Origin: a virus
IMG/VR virus record: IMGVR_UViG_3300044733_002101
Span: 1-33,871 of that record
Reading direction: 5' to 3' (one strand)
Length of the DNA: 33,871 nt
In this document: positions 435-24,939 of the stretch, in pieces
Position numbering within the stretch: the first letter of the stretch is position 1
Layout: each line of letters begins with the position of its first letter
The notes under the pieces: model-generated
What the model saw: only the letters and a program-made list of their open reading frames with translations
Databases searched by the model: none
Told to the model about the DNA's origin: nothing
Translations under genes and position numbers: made by a program

Positions 435-1034
435 GTGTCTGTATTCATCTCCCACAAGAAGGTCCGCGATGCGGGGGCCGTGCCGCTCGCTGACCAGTTG
501 CTGGAGGGCGAACTTGCCGTCAACGTGGCGGACGGCTCTGTGTTCACCAAGCTGGAATCCGGCGAGGTGATGAAGGTGGGCGGCGAGATGGTTTCCGCTC
601 AGTCTGGAAACAGCATCGACACGCTTGCGGGAACGTGGACGCCAACGATCAAGGGCGACACCACCAACCCGACCGTGACCTATGACGCGAAGGGCACCAA
701 GGGGCGGTACGTCAAGATCGGCAGCATCGTTCAGGTGTCCTGTCAGGTCACGCTGACGGCCAAGAGCAGCGGCAGCGGGTACGTCTACATCGCTGGCCTG
801 CCGTTTCCCCCGGCCAACATCTCGGCCATCGGCATCGCCAACTTCTCAGGCTGGACAACCTACGGACCGACGTGGGCCAACATCACAACTGCGTCCCGCA
901 TTGTGTTCCGCCGCCCGACAACCGTTAGCAGCCTTGAGCAGACGGCATTGCTCACCTGCGACAACCTCTCGGCCACGACCAAGGTGTTCCTCTCCGGCTC
1001 GTACATCACCAACGCTACGGAGCCTGCGTCCTAA
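435..1034 (+). CDS. Probable tail fibre / receptor-binding accessory protein
   Basis: A 199-residue protein starting at GTG, with an AAGGGG-like site a few bases upstream. Residues 20-45 contain a motif typical of phage fibre N-termini (LEGELAVNVADGSVF), which in known fibres precedes the particle-binding part. The rest is a small beta-rich domain with the pattern GTWTP...Y...GRYVKIGSIVQV...GLPFP, a recurring module in phage fibres and putative receptor-binding proteins. The stop overlaps the start of the giant fibre gene by one base, so the two are likely made together and may share an attachment point on the virion. The exact role is inferred. Confidence 0.6.
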   Translation: MSVFISHKKVRDAGAVPLADQLLEGELAVNVADGSVFTKLESGEVMKVGGEMVSAQSGNSIDTLAGTWTPTIKGDTTNPTVTYDAKGTKGRYVKIGSIVQVSCQVTLTAKSSGSGYVYIAGLPFPPANISAIGIANFSGWTTYGPTWANITTASRIVFRRPTTVSSLEQTALLTCDNLSATTKVFLSGSYITNATEPAS

Positions 1035-4000
1035 TGACACTGGTCCGCATTCAGCTACGCAGAGACACGGCCGCCAACTGGACGGCCGCCAATCCCGTTC
1101 TTGCCAACGGGGAGCCTGGGCTGGAAACGGACACCGGGAAGATCAAGTACGGCAACGGCGTTCAGAACTGGGCCGCCCTGCCCTACGCCACCAACACGCC
1201 GCTCGCATCCTCCGCGCCGCCGACGATCGGATCTGCCACAACGGGCACGTCAGCGTCTGCTGCCAGGGCGGATCACACGCACGCACTGCCGACTACCATC
1301 TCTGTCGAGTCTCTCGCGACTAGCGGAGACATCGTGATTGGCGGGAACGCCACCGTCACAGGCACGCTCAATGCGTCCAAGCTGTCCACGTCCTCCAACA
1401 GCATCGTTGACCTTGCTGAGACCGTGCAGGACATCGTTGGGGCGGCAGTCAAGGCTGGGGACGGCATCAAGGTGGCGTACGACGACAACGCCGGGACCAT
1501 CACGGTTTCTTCTTCTGCGGTTGGGGGCGGCACGAACAGTTCCATCACGCTAGAGGATGTAGACGACAGGGTGGCTGGCCTGTTGACTGCCGGTGCTGGC
1601 ATTTCGCTCCAGTACAACGACAACCTTGGCACCCTCACGGTTTCCGCAGTGAGCCTTGACGGCGGCGACGTTCCGGGGGATCTTCCGACGCCTTCGCAGC
1701 TTGCGATTTCCGCGAACCCCGCAACCATCGAGGTCGAGGAAGACGGCCTTGCGGTGTTCACGGTCGGTGCCACCGGAAACCGTGGCGCAGTCACATACCA
1801 GTGGGAGTATCTGACCCCAGGCGGCACCGTGTGGCAGAACGTCACGAACGGCAGCGGCACAACTGGGGCCACGACGGCAAGGCTGACAATCGACGGCGTG
1901 ACTGCCTCGCTCAACAAGCGTTGGTTTCGCTGCGCGGTCACGGATGACCAGAAAACTGTGCGGAGCCGTGCAGGCCAGTTGCGGGTCAACTACTTCGAGA
2001 TCACTGTTCAGCCTGTATCCACTACGGCCGTCAGCGGCTCCACGACGCCATCCACGACGTTTTCTGTCACGGCCGTGTCCGACGACGCGATCACCTATCA
2101 GTGGCAGGCGCTGACGAGCGGAGTCTGGACGAACATCTCTGGGGCCACCTCTGCCACCTACGGCAGCATCTCAGCGACGGCGAACGTAGCGTACCGCTGT
2201 GCCGTCACATCGAACAGCGTAACGATCTATAGCAATTCCGTAACGCTTTCGATCACGGACGCTCCGGTCACGATCACTACGCAGCCGTCCAACGCAACGG
2301 CATCGTCCGGCGCAGCGACGTTCACCGCAGCTTACTCCGGCGGGAGTTCGCCAACCGTCCGGTGGCAAGTGCAGCGAGCCGGGTTTTCGACGTGGGAGGA
2401 CATCTCCGGCGCTACGACCACCACGCTGTCTCTGGCAGGACTCGTCGGAGTTGACAACGGCAACCAGTACCGAATGGTTGTCACGAGCGGAACAAGCTCT
2501 CTCGCCACCAATGCCGCCACGCTGACGGTGGCTGGCCCTGCGATCACGATCCAGCCTCAAGACGCAACCGCATCGCTTGGGTTGGCGACATTCTCGTTTG
2601 CGTACTCAGGCGGCACCGGATCGGTTCAGTGGTGGAGCAGGCCGGTTGGCAGCGTCTCGTGGACGGCAGTCTCCGGCCAGACGGCAACGACGCTCTCGCT
2701 CACCGGCTTGCTCGTGACGAATAGTGGCACGGAGTACAGCGCCACTGTCACGATCTCCGGCATCACAGTGCGCACCCGTGCCGCGCTCCTAACTGTGTCG
2801 GCAGACGTGTATGCACTGGATCAGCCACAGTCCGTAGTCGTGCAGGACGGACAAGAGTTCACGATGAGGTTTCGCACGACCTACGGGGCTGGAGAACGGT
2901 ATTGGTTCTTTCAGTGGCAGCGGCGCCAGCCCGGAAATCCTGTGTGGCAGTCGCTCCCCAACAGCGACACCCCATTTCGCGCCGTGAGCGTGACCGACGC
3001 AAACGGCGTTGCTCTTTCGACGTTTATCATTTATCCGGGGGTCGCACTTCCAGAATTGAGGCTGCGTGCCTCAGTGGCTATGTCTGGAACGCAGTACCGG
3101 GCCCGAATGTGGAAAGGCGATTCGCCATCTCAGGTTCCGGTTAGGGACGAGCAATTTTCTGAAACGGCCACGCTCACGGTCACTCAGAGGCCGTCCGTTT
3201 CGCTGCCTTCTGCGCTGCCCGTAGATCGCCCGGCAAGCATGACGCGGCCGTACCGCCTTTTTGCACAACCGGATTTTACCTTCACCATCACTTACTGGCG
3301 GTCGCGGCTTGCGCAGTTCGCGTACGGCTCTGGGCGTATCGTCGGCGTGGGGCATGGCGGCGACAGCTTGGCAACAATCTCGCCGTTACCTCTTCCCTCT
3401 GGCGGCGTGTTCCCCGTTGGACTTCCTCTAAACTCATCGTCTAGCGCGTCTCATTTCGCCCAGCTCAATCGCGGCACAAATCGGTTCATCTACAGCGACG
3501 ATGACGGCGCAACTTGGTCATCGGGCCAGTTTCCGGTGTCCGCCATCTGGACTGACGTTGCGTTTGGAGGCGGCAGGTTTGTGGCAGTTGGCGTGGAGTC
3601 AGCCGCGACAGAAACCTGCAAGACTTATTTGTGCATGTCTGCGGACGGTGGCCGCACATGGCAAAGCAGGGTGCTTTCGGATGGCATCGCGTGGATGCCC
3701 AGAGTCATCGGAAGCCCATCCAGCGGATTTTTAGTTTCCGCCAATGGCAAGGTGTTTCACTGCGATAGCTGGAACGCTGTTGTTGCATCCGACTTGGACA
3801 TTGGGCTTCAGGACGGCGTGAACCTTGGCGGCGCGTGGATAGCGGTCGGCCCATCAGAGCCGTCCGGAATCACCCGAGTTCGCGAATCCTATCTCGGCGT
3901 TCCTGGTCGCTATCGGATTGTTCCCCAGGTTCTGGACAACGCAACGGGGGTCGATGTCAATGAACGGGCGCTTCCGTGGCGTGCGTTTGGCGGCGCTAGG

Positions 4001-6043
4001 TACAGCGAAGACAACGGCGTCAACTGGCGGCAGTATTCCAGCAACATCGACTACATCGACCCCGGCGAAGGCACTTCGCAGTCCTGCATTGCAAGCACCG
4101 GGTCCGTGGCTGTCATTGTCTCGTCCTCTGGATCGCACGTTCATTCAACCACGGACGGCATCACGTTTAGCTACAGCCCTGTGTATCTGTCTGCGGTAAA
4201 CGCTGGCGGAACTGTGAACACTATCTCTGTTCGCGCCGTAGCTGCCGCTGGGCAGGATATCCTCTACCTAGCCAAGAACGTCTACCGGGCGACGAGCACC
4301 TCGCAGGAAGTGCGTTATGCTCTCGCCTACCGCGCTCCAGCTTCGACGCCCCACCTCGCAACGCCTGTTTATACAGAGCAGATCACCAGCGATGATTCCG
4401 CAGACGGATACACGCACGTCATAGCCACAGACAGGTACTTCGTCGCCATCGACCCCGTTGGCGGCGGCGTGCTGCGTTTCCCGCTGGCAGTGGCGGATCA
4501 CGTCAGCGATGGCGATCCAACAGACGGTCGCCCAGGCGCTCCTCGCGCTACGCAGGCGACTCCGCTCTCTCCTACGAGCATTTCGATTTCGTGGCAGGCC
4601 CCTCCATCCGGTGGCGCTCCGATCACAAGTTATGTGTTGCAGCGGTCCACCGACATGGGGCGGACGTGGGCAAGCGTTAGCACCCCGTCGTCTTCGTCCG
4701 TGTCTGCTACCGCAACTGGCCTTACGTCCGGCACGACGTACATGTTCCGAGTTGCTGCCGTCAACAGCATTGGCACTGGCCCTTACTCGTTCGCCAGCAA
4801 CGTGACCGCTCCGGCAACCATACGCACGTCCGCCCCGCGCAACGTCGGCTCGGTGATTACAACTCACTCGGCCAGCAACGCACGCAAGCCGACGTTTCTT
4901 GTGACGTGGCAGGTGCCGGAGGTGGACGGCGGATCTCCCGTCACGGGCTACGAGATACAGACTCGCAAGCAGATCCTCAACGCTGACGGCAGCAGGCGAG
5001 AGTTCTCGGAGTGGGTGGCACTTCCGCCGAGAGGCACGTCCGGCTCTGTGCGATGGTCGGAAATTACGGGCACAAGTGCCGTTACGGCCGACATGCAGGA
5101 GCGGCCCGGTATTCGCTACGGCGTGCAGCATCGCGTGGCCGCATCGAACGCCAACGGAATCGGGCCGTGGGCGGAAAGCAACGTCGTGGATTGGGGCGGC
5201 ACGAGTGGAACCACGACGCCGACTCCGGGGCCGGGAACCGTCGCCGCCCCCGGTGCCGCCACATCACTCACGACAACCGCTATAGCTAATCCTCTCGGTG
5301 ACGCTGGCAATCCAGGCTTTACGCTGTCGTGGACTGCCCCAGCCGCTGGCTCCGGCGGCGCGCCGACGGGATATATCGTTCAGACTCGCAAGCAGATCGT
5401 GGGAACAAGCCGTGGGGCGTTCGACGCATGGGAGACGCTTGGTGTTCGCAACACCACTTCGCCATCTGATCCTGCGTACAGAAAGTGGGCGACCGTAAGC
5501 GGCACCACTGCCACGGTGGCTCTGTCTGGCATGAGGTCCGGCACCACCTACGGCTTTCAGTTCCGAGTCGCCGCCACCAACTCCGGCGGGCAGGGAGCGT
5601 ACGTCGAGGGATCGACCGTGGATTGGCCGTCTGCTTCTAGCGCCCCGAACGCACCAACGTCTGTGTCCGCGACTCGCATCAACAACACGATCACCGGAAA
5701 CGCCACGCAGCCCGGATTCACAGTGTCGTGGACGGCCCCGTCGTCTGCCGGTAGTTCTGCGATCAGTTCGTATGTCGTTCAGTGGCGATACCGGCCACTC
5801 GACTCGTTCGGCAACGCCGGGGAGTACGGCGCGTGGCAAGCCCTCCCGGCACGCAACACGACCGACACAAGCTCTCCCGCCTACCGCACTTGGGCGACCG
5901 TGAGCGGCACGTCGGCCACAGTGAGCGGCGGCGGCTTCCGATCGACCCTGAAGTATGAGTTCCAGTTCCGAATTGCAGCCCTCAACTCCACCGGGGCCAG
6001 CCCATACGGAGAGAGCAGCGCCATCCAGTGGCCCGCACCGTAA
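1034..6043 (+). CDS. Giant tail fibre / adhesin with Mtd-like N-terminus, Ig-like, Asp-box and FN3 domains
   Basis: 1669 residues. Residues 1-50 carry the RRDTAANWTAANPVLANGE...ETDTGKIKYG pattern of the N-terminal domain of phage major tropism determinants and fibres, which mediates trimer or particle attachment. Residues about 130-215 hold two copies of a roughly 30-residue repeat (aGxGI...YxDNxGTxTVS). Five Ig-like units follow at about 220-690, each with a central W and a Y.C or Y.. strand. Residues about 815-1155 contain Asp-box-like motifs (SDDDGATW, SADGGRTW, SEDNGVNW), suggesting a sialidase-type beta-propeller without proof of enzyme activity. Four FN3-like domains lie at about 1165-1669; the second and third share the strand motif QTRKQI, and the third and fourth share long stretches. 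Probable role: host-surface recognition or carbohydrate binding. Confidence 0.8.
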   Translation: MTLVRIQLRRDTAANWTAANPVLANGEPGLETDTGKIKYGNGVQNWAALPYATNTPLASSAPPTIGSATTGTSASAARADHTHALPTTISVESLATSGDIVIGGNATVTGTLNASKLSTSSNSIVDLAETVQDIVGAAVKAGDGIKVAYDDNAGTITVSSSAVGGGTNSSITLEDVDDRVAGLLTAGAGISLQYNDNLGTLTVSAVSLDGGDVPGDLPTPSQLAISANPATIEVEEDGLAVFTVGATGNRGAVTYQWEYLTPGGTVWQNVTNGSGTTGATTARLTIDGVTASLNKRWFRCAVTDDQKTVRSRAGQLRVNYFEITVQPVSTTAVSGSTTPSTTFSVTAVSDDAITYQWQALTSGVWTNISGATSATYGSISATANVAYRCAVTSNSVTIYSNSVTLSITDAPVTITTQPSNATASSGAATFTAAYSGGSSPTVRWQVQRAGFSTWEDISGATTTTLSLAGLVGVDNGNQYRMVVTSGTSSLATNAATLTVAGPAITIQPQDATASLGLATFSFAYSGGTGSVQWWSRPVGSVSWTAVSGQTATTLSLTGLLVTNSGTEYSATVTISGITVRTRAALLTVSADVYALDQPQSVVVQDGQEFTMRFRTTYGAGERYWFFQWQRRQPGNPVWQSLPNSDTPFRAVSVTDANGVALSTFIIYPGVALPELRLRASVAMSGTQYRARMWKGDSPSQVPVRDEQFSETATLTVTQRPSVSLPSALPVDRPASMTRPYRLFAQPDFTFTITYWRSRLAQFAYGSGRIVGVGHGGDSLATISPLPLPSGGVFPVGLPLNSSSSASHFAQLNRGTNRFIYSDDDGATWSSGQFPVSAIWTDVAFGGGRFVAVGVESAATETCKTYLCMSADGGRTWQSRVLSDGIAWMPRVIGSPSSGFLVSANGKVFHCDSWNAVVASDLDIGLQDGVNLGGAWIAVGPSEPSGITRVRESYLGVPGRYRIVPQVLDNATGVDVNERALPWRAFGGARYSEDNGVNWRQYSSNIDYIDPGEGTSQSCIASTGSVAVIVSSSGSHVHSTTDGITFSYSPVYLSAVNAGGTVNTISVRAVAAAGQDILYLAKNVYRATSTSQEVRYALAYRAPASTPHLATPVYTEQITSDDSADGYTHVIATDRYFVAIDPVGGGVLRFPLAVADHVSDGDPTDGRPGAPRATQATPLSPTSISISWQAPPSGGAPITSYVLQRSTDMGRTWASVSTPSSSSVSATATGLTSGTTYMFRVAAVNSIGTGPYSFASNVTAPATIRTSAPRNVGSVITTHSASNARKPTFLVTWQVPEVDGGSPVTGYEIQTRKQILNADGSRREFSEWVALPPRGTSGSVRWSEITGTSAVTADMQERPGIRYGVQHRVAASNANGIGPWAESNVVDWGGTSGTTTPTPGPGTVAAPGAATSLTTTAIANPLGDAGNPGFTLSWTAPAAGSGGAPTGYIVQTRKQIVGTSRGAFDAWETLGVRNTTSPSDPAYRKWATVSGTTATVALSGMRSGTTYGFQFRVAATNSGGQGAYVEGSTVDWPSASSAPNAPTSVSATRINNTITGNATQPGFTVSWTAPSSAGSSAISSYVVQWRYRPLDSFGNAGEYGAWQALPARNTTDTSSPAYRTWATVSGTSATVSGGGFRSTLKYEFQFRIAALNSTGASPYGESSAIQWPAP
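5245..6040 (+). repeat. Two tandem FN3-like repeat units at the fibre C-terminus
   Basis: The last two FN3-like domains, each about 130 residues, align almost end to end. They share GFTxSWTAP, RNTT.....PAYR.WATVSGT.ATV, then (F)QFR(V/I)AA.NS and finally a terminal W-P. The spacing and shared atypical insert (PAYRxWATVSGT) show that they are copies of one another and not just two members of the same fold. The preceding FN3 shares only the QTRKQI strand and the overall layout. Such recent domain duplication is common in phage adhesins. Confidence 0.65.
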
Positions 6044-22100: not shown

Positions 22101-22526
22101 TCCGCAGTCAGGGGCATGGGCGGCAACCCAGGCTACCTTTCCGCACTGGGAGATCGAGTCGTCGGCAACGTGCCGTTTGTGCAGCGGCCAGCCCAGTTCA
22201 TCGGGCAACTGACCGACACCAGATCGGGTGCGTCTGCTGGTGAACGGGCGCTGCTGGCTGGACTAACGGCCACGACCGGACTCAAGATCAAGCCGTTCTC
22301 GCAGGCCCAGATCGAGGCCGATCAGCAGCGGGAGATCCTCGATAGCATCGACCCGTTCACCCGAGACATGTCGATCGCCTACATCCCAGAGGCCCTCCAG
22401 CCCACCGTCCCACAGTGGGCGCTCGACCGGGAGAAGGTCAGCAAGAGCATCGACAAGAAGAGGCGCAAGCGGAGCGAGAAAAAGAAGAAGCCGGTGAAGG
22501 TGCCCCGCATTGATCTAGTCGATTGA
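19194..22526 (+). CDS. Large internal virion / polyvalent-type protein
   Basis: 1110 residues; GTG start with GAGGT a few bases upstream. The N-terminal 130 residues include an amphipathic or weakly hydrophobic stretch (WASFAIGTAAELALDPLAML). At about 813-840 is VDYSTLSNFERMYMRKLFPW-YTF, close to the (V/L)DYS.L...ER...R..FPFYTW motif I associate with very large phage virion proteins and polyvalent proteins. The C-terminus is strongly basic (KKRRKRSEKKKKPVK), which could bind packaged DNA. It is the last gene of the structural operon and overlaps the 3' end of the convergent integrase by 12 bases. Probable role: ejected internal protein; no catalytic site is identified. Confidence 0.55.
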   Translation: MAVPSDPFDGTAMFSGDALLGRRRRPQLGISPELEQSVLDDIQEASGGTIDKLAYVLDTPGAIARALLAGQPERAFASADERVSGRDLLKITGLIPEDTPDDWASFAIGTAAELALDPLAMLSGPAKALTTAGKAAKKLNLLDDAARVASKKYLDDTATKAISDRASKYAGTLGREVAPDIDLYARPLVGKRAAQRYGTLEDLIQYADDAPTAEREARALLGADYDKIIKQNLSGDVGVSLPFGDPFATFNVPGGAGYTDALDSMGRAFRWSPAGRLWAAGADVRAGGAFDAEGQILNRANFERRATATKRASGMMADAETRLFAGAEDAFTEEGNLRMGRLMEGIGNAEDLEWAKNPAVREYLDVIDEIRTGSPMAMENVGLSGATINDEFGLDYMPYQADAAFEMAGKRDKGLGRQLSTMTGDQMRRTDAMRTPGGREQIMKLSQDYNVSGPNRTYKTDEAAAVYLADQVFGKPYASLTGKQQKRLVRLARVLHRLPEDITRQIPLFGQHPVQMWRQYTEGRAGAIATAETLYDSLASFAVNTPFQQAPEGRHIPLAAALKKLGLRTTAVEGGEIGARQQMRQRLAKAFGVANPDDINLSQISIPQEHLDRMLKTRDAFTRPEVANDVVRKLDEFTQIWKGSILAWPARTVRDVYSGMFSNWLAGALDPQSMIVAKGLLANGATSEGFQNWLAQIPRYSEIADPVQRAAAFNRDLAASGLIKAGQSLDRTASITGDKALENVVGARPVTVGAIGEQLATAQWKGFADNPVLRAGEAANNFSDQLNRTTGYISLLSQGYLPEAAAKAIKRVQVDYSTLSNFERMYMRKLFPWYTFQSRIFGEVLQQLLERPGGRYGQAIGIMGDVQREAQEGTYIPSGPRSQFALPVGDFFGQGGDDVTRILYDVDVPAVDQINMIASEPTVAGSVGGTFRQIGAQLNPLMRVGTEVITGRDLYHDGKLGDSPSGVVSSAVRGMGGNPGYLSALGDRVVGNVPFVQRPAQFIGQLTDTRSGASAGERALLAGLTATTGLKIKPFSQAQIEADQQREILDSIDPFTRDMSIAYIPEALQPTVPQWALDREKVSKSIDKKRRKRSEKKKKPVKVPRIDLVD

Positions 22527-23318
22527 CGGCACCATGACATCCTCTTCTAGCTGGCTCATATCGACGTAGCTGCGGTAAGCGAGCGTGGGCGTTTTGTGGC
22601 CCAGCAGGATCGTGGCACTGCCTTTCTTCCGGGCCTCTACATGGGTGGCCGCAGACCGCCGAAGCCACCTCCCAGACCCGGACATGCCAGCCTCCGATAG
22701 CAGCTTGCGGAAGAGGCGGAAGCTGTAGCGGCGGTTGATGATGCCGCCGACTATGAGCAGCCCCCTGCCCTCCAATATCTCCCTTACTCTCTCCTGCGTG
22801 ACGTGGCCGATCCGGCGTGTCATCGAGATCCCCGTCTTGCTCATCACCCAGCAGATGCAGTCGCCGTGCAGGTGGTCTTTCGTCCACGAGAAAATGTCCC
22901 CGTAGCGTGCCGCCGTGTCGTACCCCAGCCGCAGCCACGTCTCCATGAATAGACCTTTGTCCACCCCGCAATCGAACCGTTGGCCCCTCCACTTCCAACT
23001 GGTATTGACCAGGGTCTTGACGGCCCCTAAACTCCACGCTCGAACGGGTGGTTGCTCTTGTCGGATTCGCATCACGCCTCGTGGTGCTTCTTCGATGAGA
23101 TGGCTCTCATAGCCATATCGCATGAGGGTCAGCAGCATCCGCCGTTCGTTGGCGAGCGTTACGGACGACACTTCTTCCTGGCGAGCACGGAGGTAGCCGT
23201 TGATGACTGCCGGTTCTAAGGATGCGACCTTACCGGCTGTACGCTTTATATGCTCTGCGTACTGCGGCGTGACCAACCGTGCCGAAAGGTACTGCTCTGC
23301 CAATGTGGTAGGGTTCAT
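22515..23318 (-). CDS. int: Tyrosine-family phage integrase
   Basis: 267 residues, short for the family but with both halves. Residues about 1-85 resemble a core-binding SAM-like domain (LAEQYLSARLVTPQY, then a helical stretch). The catalytic half has Arg138 in TAARYGDI (box I), Lys161 in the SKTG beta-hairpin, box II around Arg220 in RWLRRSAATH, His241 in LLGHKTPT and Tyr251 in YRSYVD as nucleophile (Tyr248 is an alternative). The box II His of H-x-x-R is Arg217 here, a substitution tolerated in some members. It diverges from the recombination operon with only 38 bases between starts and lies beside a tRNA-like attP core, as expected for a temperate phage. No strong ribosome binding site precedes the ATG. 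Confidence 0.9.
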   Translation of the reverse strand: MNPTTLAEQYLSARLVTPQYAEHIKRTAGKVASLEPAVINGYLRARQEEVSSVTLANERRMLLTLMRYGYESHLIEEAPRGVMRIRQEQPPVRAWSLGAVKTLVNTSWKWRGQRFDCGVDKGLFMETWLRLGYDTAARYGDIFSWTKDHLHGDCICWVMSKTGISMTRRIGHVTQERVREILEGRGLLIVGGIINRRYSFRLFRKLLSEAGMSGSGRWLRRSAATHVEARKKGSATILLGHKTPTLAYRSYVDMSQLEEDVMVPSID

Positions 23319-23340: not shown

Positions 23341-23346
23341 AGGAGG
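23341..23346 (+). promoter_or_regulatory. AGGAGG ribosome binding site that fixes the exonuclease start at 23357
   Basis: A perfect AGGAGG lies ten bases before the ATG at 23357. The frame is also open to a TTG at 23318, but that codon overlaps the integrase start and has no such site. The ATG at 23357 is therefore the best start. This matters because it puts the tRNA-like attP core inside the coding region. Confidence 0.7.
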
Positions 23347-23356
23347 TACACACACT

Positions 23357-24271
23357 ATGACTCAAGTTTTGTCACCAGACGGTTTTCTTGATGCCACTAG
23401 CTCGACAAGCTGGGGGTCACAGGTTCGAGTCCTGTATCGCCCACTGGGGGCTGTGGTAGTTCGGAGAGGCGAAAGCAACTCCGACTACCACGGCTGCCCG
23501 GTCACTGTCTCCAAAAGCGGGTACTGGTGTCATCACTCTGATGGCGCAGCCGCATTCCACGCGAGGTACATAGCTCGCACGGCCCCTCCGTATGAGTCGG
23601 CCGCTCTGAGCCACGGCACCCTGCTCCACCTTTGGCTGGAGCTAGGAGATGCGTTCTGGCAGGAGGTGGTCGCACCTCCCGATGAATTACTCACGGCCAC
23701 GCAGGCCATAGGCAAGGAAGCCAAGGCGTGGGCCGCAGAAAACGCCCCTAACGCGCAGCTTGTCAGCCCGAAAGAACTGAGACAGTTGCGTGCAGAGGTA
23801 CGCAGCATCGAAGAAAACCGGGCTGCGGCGGGGCTAATTGACCCGGACAGGGTTGCCGACCGGGAACTGTCCGTTCGGTTCAACATCGACGGCTTCCCGA
23901 GCCGCTGCCGCCCCGACGTTCTGACCAAAGACGGGATCGTCGTTGACCTGAAGACCACGAAGGAGACGGGCCTCTACAAGAACTGGTGGAAGGCCGTCCT
24001 CAACTACGGGTACCACGCCCAGGATTGGCTGTACCAGCGTGGCATCGAGGCGATGGGCCTTGAGCCGCAGCCGCTGCACTTCATTGTCGTCTCGACCGTC
24101 CCGCCCCACGAGTGCCTCGTCTGCACCCTGCCCCCCTCCCTGACGAGCAAGGGCGGCGAGGCCATCCGTTCTTCCATCGCGGACATCCGTCTGCGTCTCG
24201 ACCTCGATTGCTGGGTGCCGGACCAGCACGGTGAGGTGGTCGAGCTTCCCGTTCCCGGCCGTGCGTTTTAG
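23357..24271 (+). CDS. PD-(D/E)XK exonuclease (RecE / YqaJ-like), attP in its 5' end
   Basis: 304 residues. Residues about 45-85 carry CPVTVSKSGYWCHHSDGAAA...FHARY and SHGTLLHLWLE, the typical opening of phage RecE-like exonucleases ('iS.S.....' and 'G...H'). The catalytic signature is RPD187 and D197-L-K199 in CRPDVLTKDGIVVDLKTTKE, that is D...DxK of the PD-(D/E)XK fold. Such enzymes resect 5' ends of double-stranded DNA for a partner annealing protein, and the next gene is an ERF-type annealing protein. Residues 14-30 are encoded by a tRNA-Val-like sequence that is the probable attP core, upstream of the conserved domain. Integration would remove the AGGAGG and ATG. The best internal restart would be GTG 23453, which lies in a hairpin and lacks a good binding site. 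Confidence 0.8.
   Translation: MTQVLSPDGFLDATSSTSWGSQVRVLYRPLGAVVVRRGESNSDYHGCPVTVSKSGYWCHHSDGAAAFHARYIARTAPPYESAALSHGTLLHLWLELGDAFWQEVVAPPDELLTATQAIGKEAKAWAAENAPNAQLVSPKELRQLRAEVRSIEENRAAAGLIDPDRVADRELSVRFNIDGFPSRCRPDVLTKDGIVVDLKTTKETGLYKNWWKAVLNYGYHAQDWLYQRGIEAMGLEPQPLHFIVVSTVPPHECLVCTLPPSLTSKGGEAIRSSIADIRLRLDLDCWVPDQHGEVVELPVPGRAF
23397..23443 (+). other. attP: attP-like core: 3' half of tRNA-Val(GAC)
   Basis: The stretch folds as the 3' part of a tRNA. The anticodon stem is CTAGC/GCTGG (23397-23401 with 23409-23413, one G-T wobble). The loop TCGACAA has anticodon GAC at 23404-23406, and the variable loop is GGGTC. The T arm is ACAGG-TTCGAGT-CCTGT (23419-23435), followed by acceptor strand ATCGCCC and discriminator A. 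The matching 5' acceptor (GGGCGAT) and D arm are absent upstream, so it is not a gene. Position 33 is C, where a tRNA should have T. A tRNA 3' half next to a tyrosine integrase is the classic phage attachment core, which restores the host tRNA on integration. Phage-type genes on both sides favour attP over a chromosomal attR. Confidence 0.75.
23453..23491 (+). promoter_or_regulatory. 13-bp hairpin with GNRA tetraloop just after attP
   Basis: GTGGTAGTTCGGAG (23453-23466) pairs with CTCCGACTACCAC (23479-23491) over 13 base pairs with one bulged T. Above it an AG/AA internal loop is capped by GC-GAAA-GC (23469-23476), a GNRA tetraloop. It begins nine bases after the tRNA-like 3' end and lies within the exonuclease frame. 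There is no T run, so it is not a standard intrinsic terminator. It may act at RNA level (translation start control, RNA processing next to the restored tRNA) or as a DNA site. Confidence 0.5.
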
Positions 24272-24279
24272 GAGGACAC

Positions 24280-24939
24280 ATGAGCATCACCTACGGCATC
24301 ACTGCCACCGAACAGAGTCAGTCCCTAGACCAGCTTTTCGCCGCCCTTTCTACGGCTTTCGGGCAGCTTCGCAACGCTCCCCGTACCTGCACTGGGGAGT
24401 TCGGGAAGTACGCGGATCTTGCGACCCTTCTCGACACGGCACGCGAGCCGCTTGCAGCCAACGGGCTGTCGGTCATCCAGACCTTCATGCCGTGGAGCGA
24501 GAGCGGGCAGATGGCCCTCGTCACAACGCTGGGCCACAAGTCCGGGCAGATGATTCGGTCGGTCCTGCCGATCGCCGGGGGGCTGGAGCCGCAGCGGTTG
24601 GCTGCGACCGCCACTTACATGAGGCGGATCGAGCTTGCGGCGATTCTCGGCATCGCTGCGGAGGACGAGGACGACGGCCGGACGGCAAACGCCGAGCACG
24701 CTGTTGCTGCGGTCAACGAGGAGCGGGAGGTGGAACGGAAAGCCACCCTCGCCCTCAAGGCCAAGGCCACGGCGGAAGACAGGAAGGTGGTCATGGATGA
24801 AGTGGCTCGCAGGGTCGCAGCCGGGGCGTTGACGCCGGAGGCACAGACTCGCCTGCAAGCGGTATGCGACTCGCTGGATGCGAAGCAGGACGCGGCGAAG
24901 CCAAGGCAGCAGAAGAAGGAGCTTGTTGCCGCAACGTAG
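24280..24939 (+). CDS. erf: ERF-family single-strand annealing protein
   Basis: 219 residues; AGGAGG eight bases or less before the ATG. The core matches the ERF family: KYADLATLLDTAREPLAANG (43-62), LSVIQTF, LVTTLGHKSGQMIRSVLP (80-97), EPQRLAATATYMRRIELAAI and LGIAAEDEDDG. ERF proteins form rings that anneal complementary single strands during phage recombination and genome circularisation. The C-terminus is charged and probably flexible, as in other members. With the exonuclease just upstream (stop and start eight bases apart) it forms the usual two-component recombination pair. An intrinsic terminator follows. Confidence 0.85.
   Translation: MSITYGITATEQSQSLDQLFAALSTAFGQLRNAPRTCTGEFGKYADLATLLDTAREPLAANGLSVIQTFMPWSESGQMALVTTLGHKSGQMIRSVLPIAGGLEPQRLAATATYMRRIELAAILGIAAEDEDDGRTANAEHAVAAVNEEREVERKATLALKAKATAEDRKVVMDEVARRVAAGALTPEAQTRLQAVCDSLDAKQDAAKPRQQKKELVAAT

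Follow-up and report, generated by a model that had tools for sequence, protein, structure and literature searches.

We describe here a 33,871-bp stretch of viral DNA (IMG/VR record IMGVR_UViG_3300044733_002101; below, the window) in which the phage attachment site (attP), a copy of the 3' part of a tRNA-Val(GAC) gene, is situated inside the 5' end of the gene (exo) for a RecE-like exonuclease. With a probability of about 0.78, we believe that attP forms part of an N-terminal extension with which this exonuclease is translated, such that integration would behead exo and excision would restore its full-length product. This view draws on the anatomy of the sequence, its conservation among relatives, the keeping of the reading frame across the attachment core and a headless exo observed in one prophage. 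The window overlaps over 28.4 kb with a second contig of the same phage, at 99.9-100% identity.

On the plus strand, an AGGAGG ribosome-binding site (23341..23346) precedes the ATG of exo (23357..24271), whose frame stays open up to the TAG at 24269-24271 and encodes 304 residues. The product recovered the profiles phrog_412 (4.6e-38) and DUF3799 (PF12684; 1.9e-12), and resembles E. coli RecE (3h4r) both in sequence (5.5e-25 with a family profile) and in fold. These matches place it, as a predicted exonuclease, among the PD-(D/E)XK nucleases of the RecE/exonuclease VIII family. The leader codons (23357..23396, plus strand), which integration would separate from the body of exo, run without interruption into the attP core (23397..23443, plus strand), and a first-pass annotation made from the sequence had correctly read the tRNA-Val(GAC)-like 3' half as lying, in one open frame, between the AGGAGG/ATG of exo and its nuclease domain. 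That annotation placed the conserved domain from about 23490. In the AlphaFold model the confident nuclease fold begins earlier, at about residue 31 (about 23447) and thus directly past the core, and residues 1-27 have a predicted local distance difference test score (pLDDT) below 50. The leader and the core are accordingly modelled as a disordered, floppy tail.

The core reads CTAGC-TCGACAA-GCTGG...ATCGCCCA and represents the 3' part (anticodon arm to 3' end) of a tRNA, matching the tRNA-Val(GAC) of Pirellulales in form between the 7-nt anticodon loop and the discriminator base; directly past the core, from 23444 onward, the window continues with CTGGGGGCTGTGGTAGTT. The exact 40-nt core of the window was absent from all genome contigs searched. 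A relaxed core pattern, used thereafter, matched 51 genome contigs, of which 51/51 were labelled Planctomycetota, each with the match inside a complete tRNA-Val(GAC), as a host search proposed in the first-pass annotation had foreseen. The host consensus is GGGCGATTAGCTCAGTTGGTTAGAGCAC(C/T)AGC-TCGACAA-GCT(G/A)GGGGTC..AGG..., with two D-arm base changes in one host; the window core joins a GCTGG stem to an ACAGG/CCTGT T-stem, each separately present in hosts. The predicted target of integration is hence the tRNA-Val(GAC) of Pirellulales, and the phages belong to freshwater planctomycete bacteria. More broadly, the bacterial site attB is predicted to overlap a host tRNA gene in all cases considered here, namely tRNA-Val in the 51 contigs, tRNA-His in six genomes and tRNA-Met in the metagenome-assembled genome (MAG) G025. 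Strand exchange probably occurs within the anticodon loop, with TCGACAA (23402-23408) as the likely overlap, as suggested by the near-symmetric arms and by the habit of mycobacteriophages, in which exchange at this place has been called common (PMC10865867). Because the window has no complete tRNA and phage genes flank the core on either side, int to its left and exo, ERF and helicase to its right, the core is attP and not the right prophage junction (attR), the alternative that the first-pass annotation had entertained.

Some further observations concern these tRNAs and their hosts. Position 33 is C (loop TCGACAA) in all 51 host tRNA-Val(GAC) genes and in the phage cores, the pattern having left this base unconstrained; U33 is nearly universal in tRNAs, and T33 is found in tRNA-His from the same hosts. 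The 'tRNA-Val' calls of ARAGORN in L005, L006, L024 and L029 were rejected as true tRNAs, being attP cores completed by a chance match for the 5' half. In other phages, L002 (842-872) and L003 (2574-2604), a tRNA-Val 3' half of another isoacceptor (anticodon read as CAC) lies upstream of an unrelated integrase and outside long genes, which is the ordinary attP layout. Several MAGs titled 'Candidatus Kuenenia stuttgartiensis' (L056, L057, L064, L067, L072, L084, L089, L093) share the Pirellulales tRNA-Val, and the 'Kuenenia'-titled MAG G011 was placed in the family of G025; such titles look wrong.

Searches with alignments of exo and of the integrase gene (int) recovered a set of relatives. The order int (minus strand), tRNA-Val core, exo (plus strand) was found in 12 IMG/VR contigs, one being the same phage, with the core inside the exo frame in 12/12 and int adjoining the core wherever the contig extends that far. 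As the same element occupies the same place in all of these contigs, its placement is far beyond chance. The exonucleases of the tRNA-Val relatives are 46-54% identical to that of the window over the whole alignment, and the T-stems of the phage cores vary (ACAGG/CCTGT, GCAGG/CCTGC, ATAGG/CCTAT, ACTGG/CCAGT), to judge from their sequences as if following different hosts. At the equivalent place, two further phages, L171 and L172, in which exo reaches 44% identity over the alignment, bear the 3' part of a tRNA-His(GTG) that over 43 nt is identical to the tRNA-His of 6/24 Planctomycetota genomes searched. L168 and L169/L170 possess an extended exo beside int and no recognisable tRNA core; a nested inverted repeat, catgctgcttgt...acaagcagcatg, in the exo leader of L169 (about 3035-3090) is perhaps an attachment site of its own. 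One relative, G407 (IMG/VR 3300042539_001687), is complete, a 127-bp terminal overlap closing its genome at 61,475 bp; it encodes an AAA ATPase and a VWA/metallopeptidase-like gene.

Comparison of the exonuclease N-termini, recommended in the first-pass annotation, favours the prediction that exo is translated through attP from a start upstream of it. An in-frame upstream ATG without an intervening stop is present in 7/7 lineages; in dinucleotide shuffles the chance of such an ATG was 0.15-0.27 per lineage, giving a product of 1.7e-5 for lineages that are related to each other. Past the core, the next ATG, GTG or TTG is 62-122 codons away in L022, L023, L029/30 and L157, L172 has no start codon close to the conserved domain either, and a GTG past the core in L171 is GTA in L172. 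Since L022, L023, L029/30, L157 and L172 lack a start soon past the core, initiation upstream of attP is indicated. A further point in favour is that homologous exonucleases lacking a core begin at the position of the core end. Five lineages have an upstream anchor that is CCCCACGA or close to it, and in these the anchor-to-core lengths are 1, 1, 1, 1 and 0 modulo 3, and the lengths from the core to a Tyr-His pair 0, 0, 0, 0 and 1. Thus L031 differs from the others in its reading frame over the core and makes up for this upstream, leaving the frame from anchor to nuclease intact in all five. In the tRNA-His phages, a C or G replaces the host base that would create an in-frame TAG in exo. The L171 and L172 leaders give a non-synonymous rate (pN) of 0.21 and a synonymous rate (pS) of 0.45, from too few substitutions to weigh on either side.

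The consequences of integration were assessed by joining in silico the 5' halves of the 51 host tRNA-Val genes to the right side of each of 8 tRNA-Val phages, yielding model left junctions (attL). For 7/8 phages a TAG in the tRNA D-loop closes the exo frame and leaves no upstream start; the first remaining starts lie at +3 codons (window, GTG), +62, +66, 0 (TTG; L024, L025), +122 and +103. In the attL of the tRNA-His phages, the frame would end at a host-tRNA TAG located 8 nt ahead of the crossover, but the anticodon GTG is a possible in-frame start. A natural case is provided by G025 (Lac Pavin, titled Planctomycetia bacterium), where a complete tRNA-Met is immediately followed by an exo-ERF pair. 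The exo frame there, of 309 codons, opens past a TAG that lies within the tRNA, and its first ATG, GTG or TTG comes at residue 169; of the other homologous exo loci, 15/15 tested among Planctomycetota genomes possess a start near the domain. A beheaded exo is therefore observed in a related prophage and predicted for the window phage, and the frames, the model junctions and G025 together indicate that attP lies in a gene with different products in phage and prophage. Viral contigs yielded neither a complete host tRNA-Val nor a tRNA-Met core. The exo of G239 near tRNA-Asp/Ala was set aside as an ordinary arrangement and used as a control, as it starts with a GTG of its own, about 2.4 kb away from the tRNA. 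The 6.5-Mb single-contig genome of G239 (C1) has two distant exo homologues near tRNA-Asp and tRNA-Ala, at 541 kb and 4896 kb (L146, L148); an int homologue lies some 39 kb from the first of them, and the two loci probably belong to two related prophages.

Directly 3' of the core, and within exo codons, the window has a stable hairpin (23446..23498, plus strand; z-scores -5.4 against dinucleotide and -4.2 against codon-preserving shuffles), the sole such peak along exo. A long hairpin is found here in 9/9 tRNA-Val phages tested (dinucleotide-shuffle z -3.6 to -10.7), as against a mean z of -0.06 (sd 0.85) for the 14 exo genes serving as controls. In eight tRNA-Val phages, 0-4/300 codon-preserving shuffles were as stable as the real sequence (z -2.7 to -7.5); in L168, L169, L171 and L172 z was near 0. 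The pairing registers vary between lineages; in the register of L024, 80.7% of cells pair, versus 33-52% when it is slid. Because of this variation, RNAalifold on a MAFFT alignment returned a short consensus alone, and the hairpins were scored by per-sequence shuffles instead of alignment consensus. G025 too has a strong hairpin just past its tRNA-Met. The 3' flanks of the host tRNA-Val genes are likewise structured (mean z -2.3; 26/47 below -2), some with T-runs, and 4/5 host tRNA-His flanks have no hairpin, matching the tRNA-His phages.

The recombinase that would act at this site is encoded by int (22515..23318, minus strand), which is divergent from exo and 38 bp apart from it. Its 267-aa product is a tyrosine integrase (phrog_1, 3.9e-11) with the catalytic set of tyrosine recombinases; R138, K161, R220, H241 and Y251 are invariant in five relatives, the first residue of the HxxR box being R or K. 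It aligns to lambda Int from about residue 71, about 70 N-terminal residues being absent, and its model (pLDDT 66) resembles XerA, lambda Int 75-356 and Brujita Int, so that it probably has no arm-binding domain. This would be as expected, because attP must fit inside a gene, and attachment sites needing no arm-type sites have been linked to attP within a gene (PMC9262239). A non-exhaustive look at 20 open reading frames of G407 recognised no directionality factor, and a sigma-70 promoter scan of the 38-bp int-exo gap gave nothing useful.

In the life cycle that we propose, translation in the circular genome, infecting or excised, would begin upstream of attP, cross the tRNA-Val half as a disordered tail and yield the full-length exonuclease, ahead of ERF and helicase. 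The small integrase would recombine attP with the anticodon loop, the probable crossover point, of the tRNA-Val(GAC) of a Pirellulales host, and the tRNA would be rebuilt from the host 5' half and the phage 3' half. In the lysogen, the body of exo would lie directly behind this tRNA and cut off from its own expression signals: the exo promoter, ribosome-binding site and start codon would remain beside int, at the opposite end of the prophage. Excision would rejoin the parts, making the full-length exonuclease an excision-dependent product. Exo might thereby be silenced in the lysogen to some regulatory benefit, attP perhaps contributing to a lysis-lysogeny switch. A bolder version, which we regard as rather unlikely, is a repressor-light lysogeny, in which integration would turn the recombination operon off, depriving the leading gene of promoter and start, and excision would turn it on, a single stretch of exo being multiply coded as codons, attP, tRNA 3' half and replacement hairpin.

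Certain points weigh against the beheading of exo by integration. G025, the one real prophage, uses another tRNA and its exo is 37% identical; its attR is off the contig, and no second core copy or int of this type was found. None of the 51 host tRNA-Val loci held a prophage of the window phage from which, as the first-pass annotation had hoped, its own attL and attR could be read, and the separation of the exo body from its start is seen instead in the model junctions and in G025. In the attL of L031 the frame stays open and a TTG falls within the tRNA. With a GTG or TTG at or just past the core, the window, L024 and L025 could make a short exo. In the window this in-frame GTG (23453..23455, plus strand), in the hairpin stem three codons past the core, might serve as a prophage start for a 272-residue protein, fold-complete according to the model, by which exo may escape abolition. 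The annotation's suggestion that the lysogen loses the full-length enzyme is supported as regards the start, but complete silencing may not follow; because of this fallback, silencing would rest on promoter loss, weak initiation and the hairpin. The same GTG might even be the true start, in which case attP would be no more than a neighbour of exo, the open frame from the upstream ATG would be due to chance, and the sole effect of integration would be to swap the operon promoter. This would agree with the beginning of core-less exo homologues at the place equivalent to the core end, and with the onset of the nuclease fold past the core. We nonetheless consider it improbable in view of the five lineages lacking such a start, the GTA of L172 in place of the GTG of L171, the frame compensation of L031, the correct spacing of the AGGAGG from the upstream ATG, and the recurrence of that ATG throughout the related lineages.

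A less distant alternative, still somewhat doubtful, accepts translation through attP and regards it as genome compaction devoid of regulatory value: a repressor may silence the operon in the lysogen in any event, so that the cut would be neutral and the lost start would cost nothing. Phage genomes are dense, and a disordered tail would tolerate the arrangement. This account fits poorly with a layout that has been kept whether the core is tRNA-Val or tRNA-His, and that the tRNA-Met prophage implies as well, when homologous exo genes elsewhere exclude attP. No helix-turn-helix repressor was recognised in the 20 open reading frames of the closed 61.5-kb G407, which is weak negative evidence. As for the hairpin, we suggest that it would be a substitute 3' hairpin for the captured tRNA, taking the place of the host tRNA's own in tRNA-Val lysogens. 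Having no T-run, it is not a classic intrinsic terminator, and processing or attenuation is as likely a role as termination. It is possible, though we lean the other way, that it is a separate element unrelated to the tRNA, such as a protein-binding inverted repeat or an mRNA stability element, and the missing T-run would suit this. However, the pairing exceeds the needs of codon choice and is absent in exo genes without a tRNA-Val core, its registers differ between lineages, unlike a sequence-specific site, and the flanks of the host tRNA-Val and tRNA-His genes differ just as the phages do.

Several known systems bear comparison with the beheading of exo. In the sib retroregulation of phage lambda, integration at attP separates int from a 3' RNA-decay signal and alters its expression, with no reading frame cut; a gene is likewise parted from a cis signal, but the frame remains intact. 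The nearest known system is the integration-dependent immunity of BPs, Brujita and their relatives (PMC4557955, PMC9262239, PMC8092301), which similarly have attP inside a phage reading frame, a tRNA target, a product changed by integration and a small tyrosine integrase. There the cut gene is the immunity repressor, which loses its C-terminus with a degradation tag and is active in its prophage form; here it is a RecE-like exonuclease, cut off from its N-terminal side and start, and the free-phage form is complete. The exonuclease case is thus a trick of the BPs kind, applied to another gene and working in the opposite direction. Archaeal SSV-type suicide integrases (PMC8371274) also have the attachment site in a gene that integration splits and excision restores, but the split gene is the integrase itself and not a neighbouring nuclease. 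In helper-embedded phage-inducible chromosomal island satellites (PMC10111431), integration interrupts a phage gene whose expression awaits excision, whereas here it is an early gene of its own that the phage would split. RecE-like exonucleases from phages of Gordonia and Mycobacterium share the nuclease family and the exo-annealase operon order; the Gordonia homologues begin at about the equivalent of the core end, with no int beside exo in the stretches read. No published case of attP inside an exonuclease gene was found in the open-licence literature, which is not proof of novelty.

To the right of the core, exo is followed by the gene for an ERF-type annealing protein (24280..24939, plus strand; PF04404, 1.3e-8; phrog_2324, 4.3e-24) and by a helicase gene. 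The first-pass annotation had suggested that the coupled ERF protein might be lost together with exo. As ERF has its own AGGAGG at 24270-24275, this would not be through translational coupling, and any loss would come via lost transcription. Elsewhere in the window, positions 1034-6043 encode what is probably a tail or receptor protein, 1669 residues long and combining an Mtd_N domain with four stretches of fibronectin type III.

Location of attP within a reading frame is known for repressors and integrases; in these phages a core recombination enzyme would lose its head, in a design that has survived changes of the target tRNA. They lend themselves to directly testing whether genome state, beyond a repressor alone, decides if a DNA-degrading enzyme can be made, and this in a host phylum that is almost unstudied. 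They also illustrate how much function one 100-bp stretch can hold, and warn gene callers that a prophage exonuclease without a start codon may have a biological reason.
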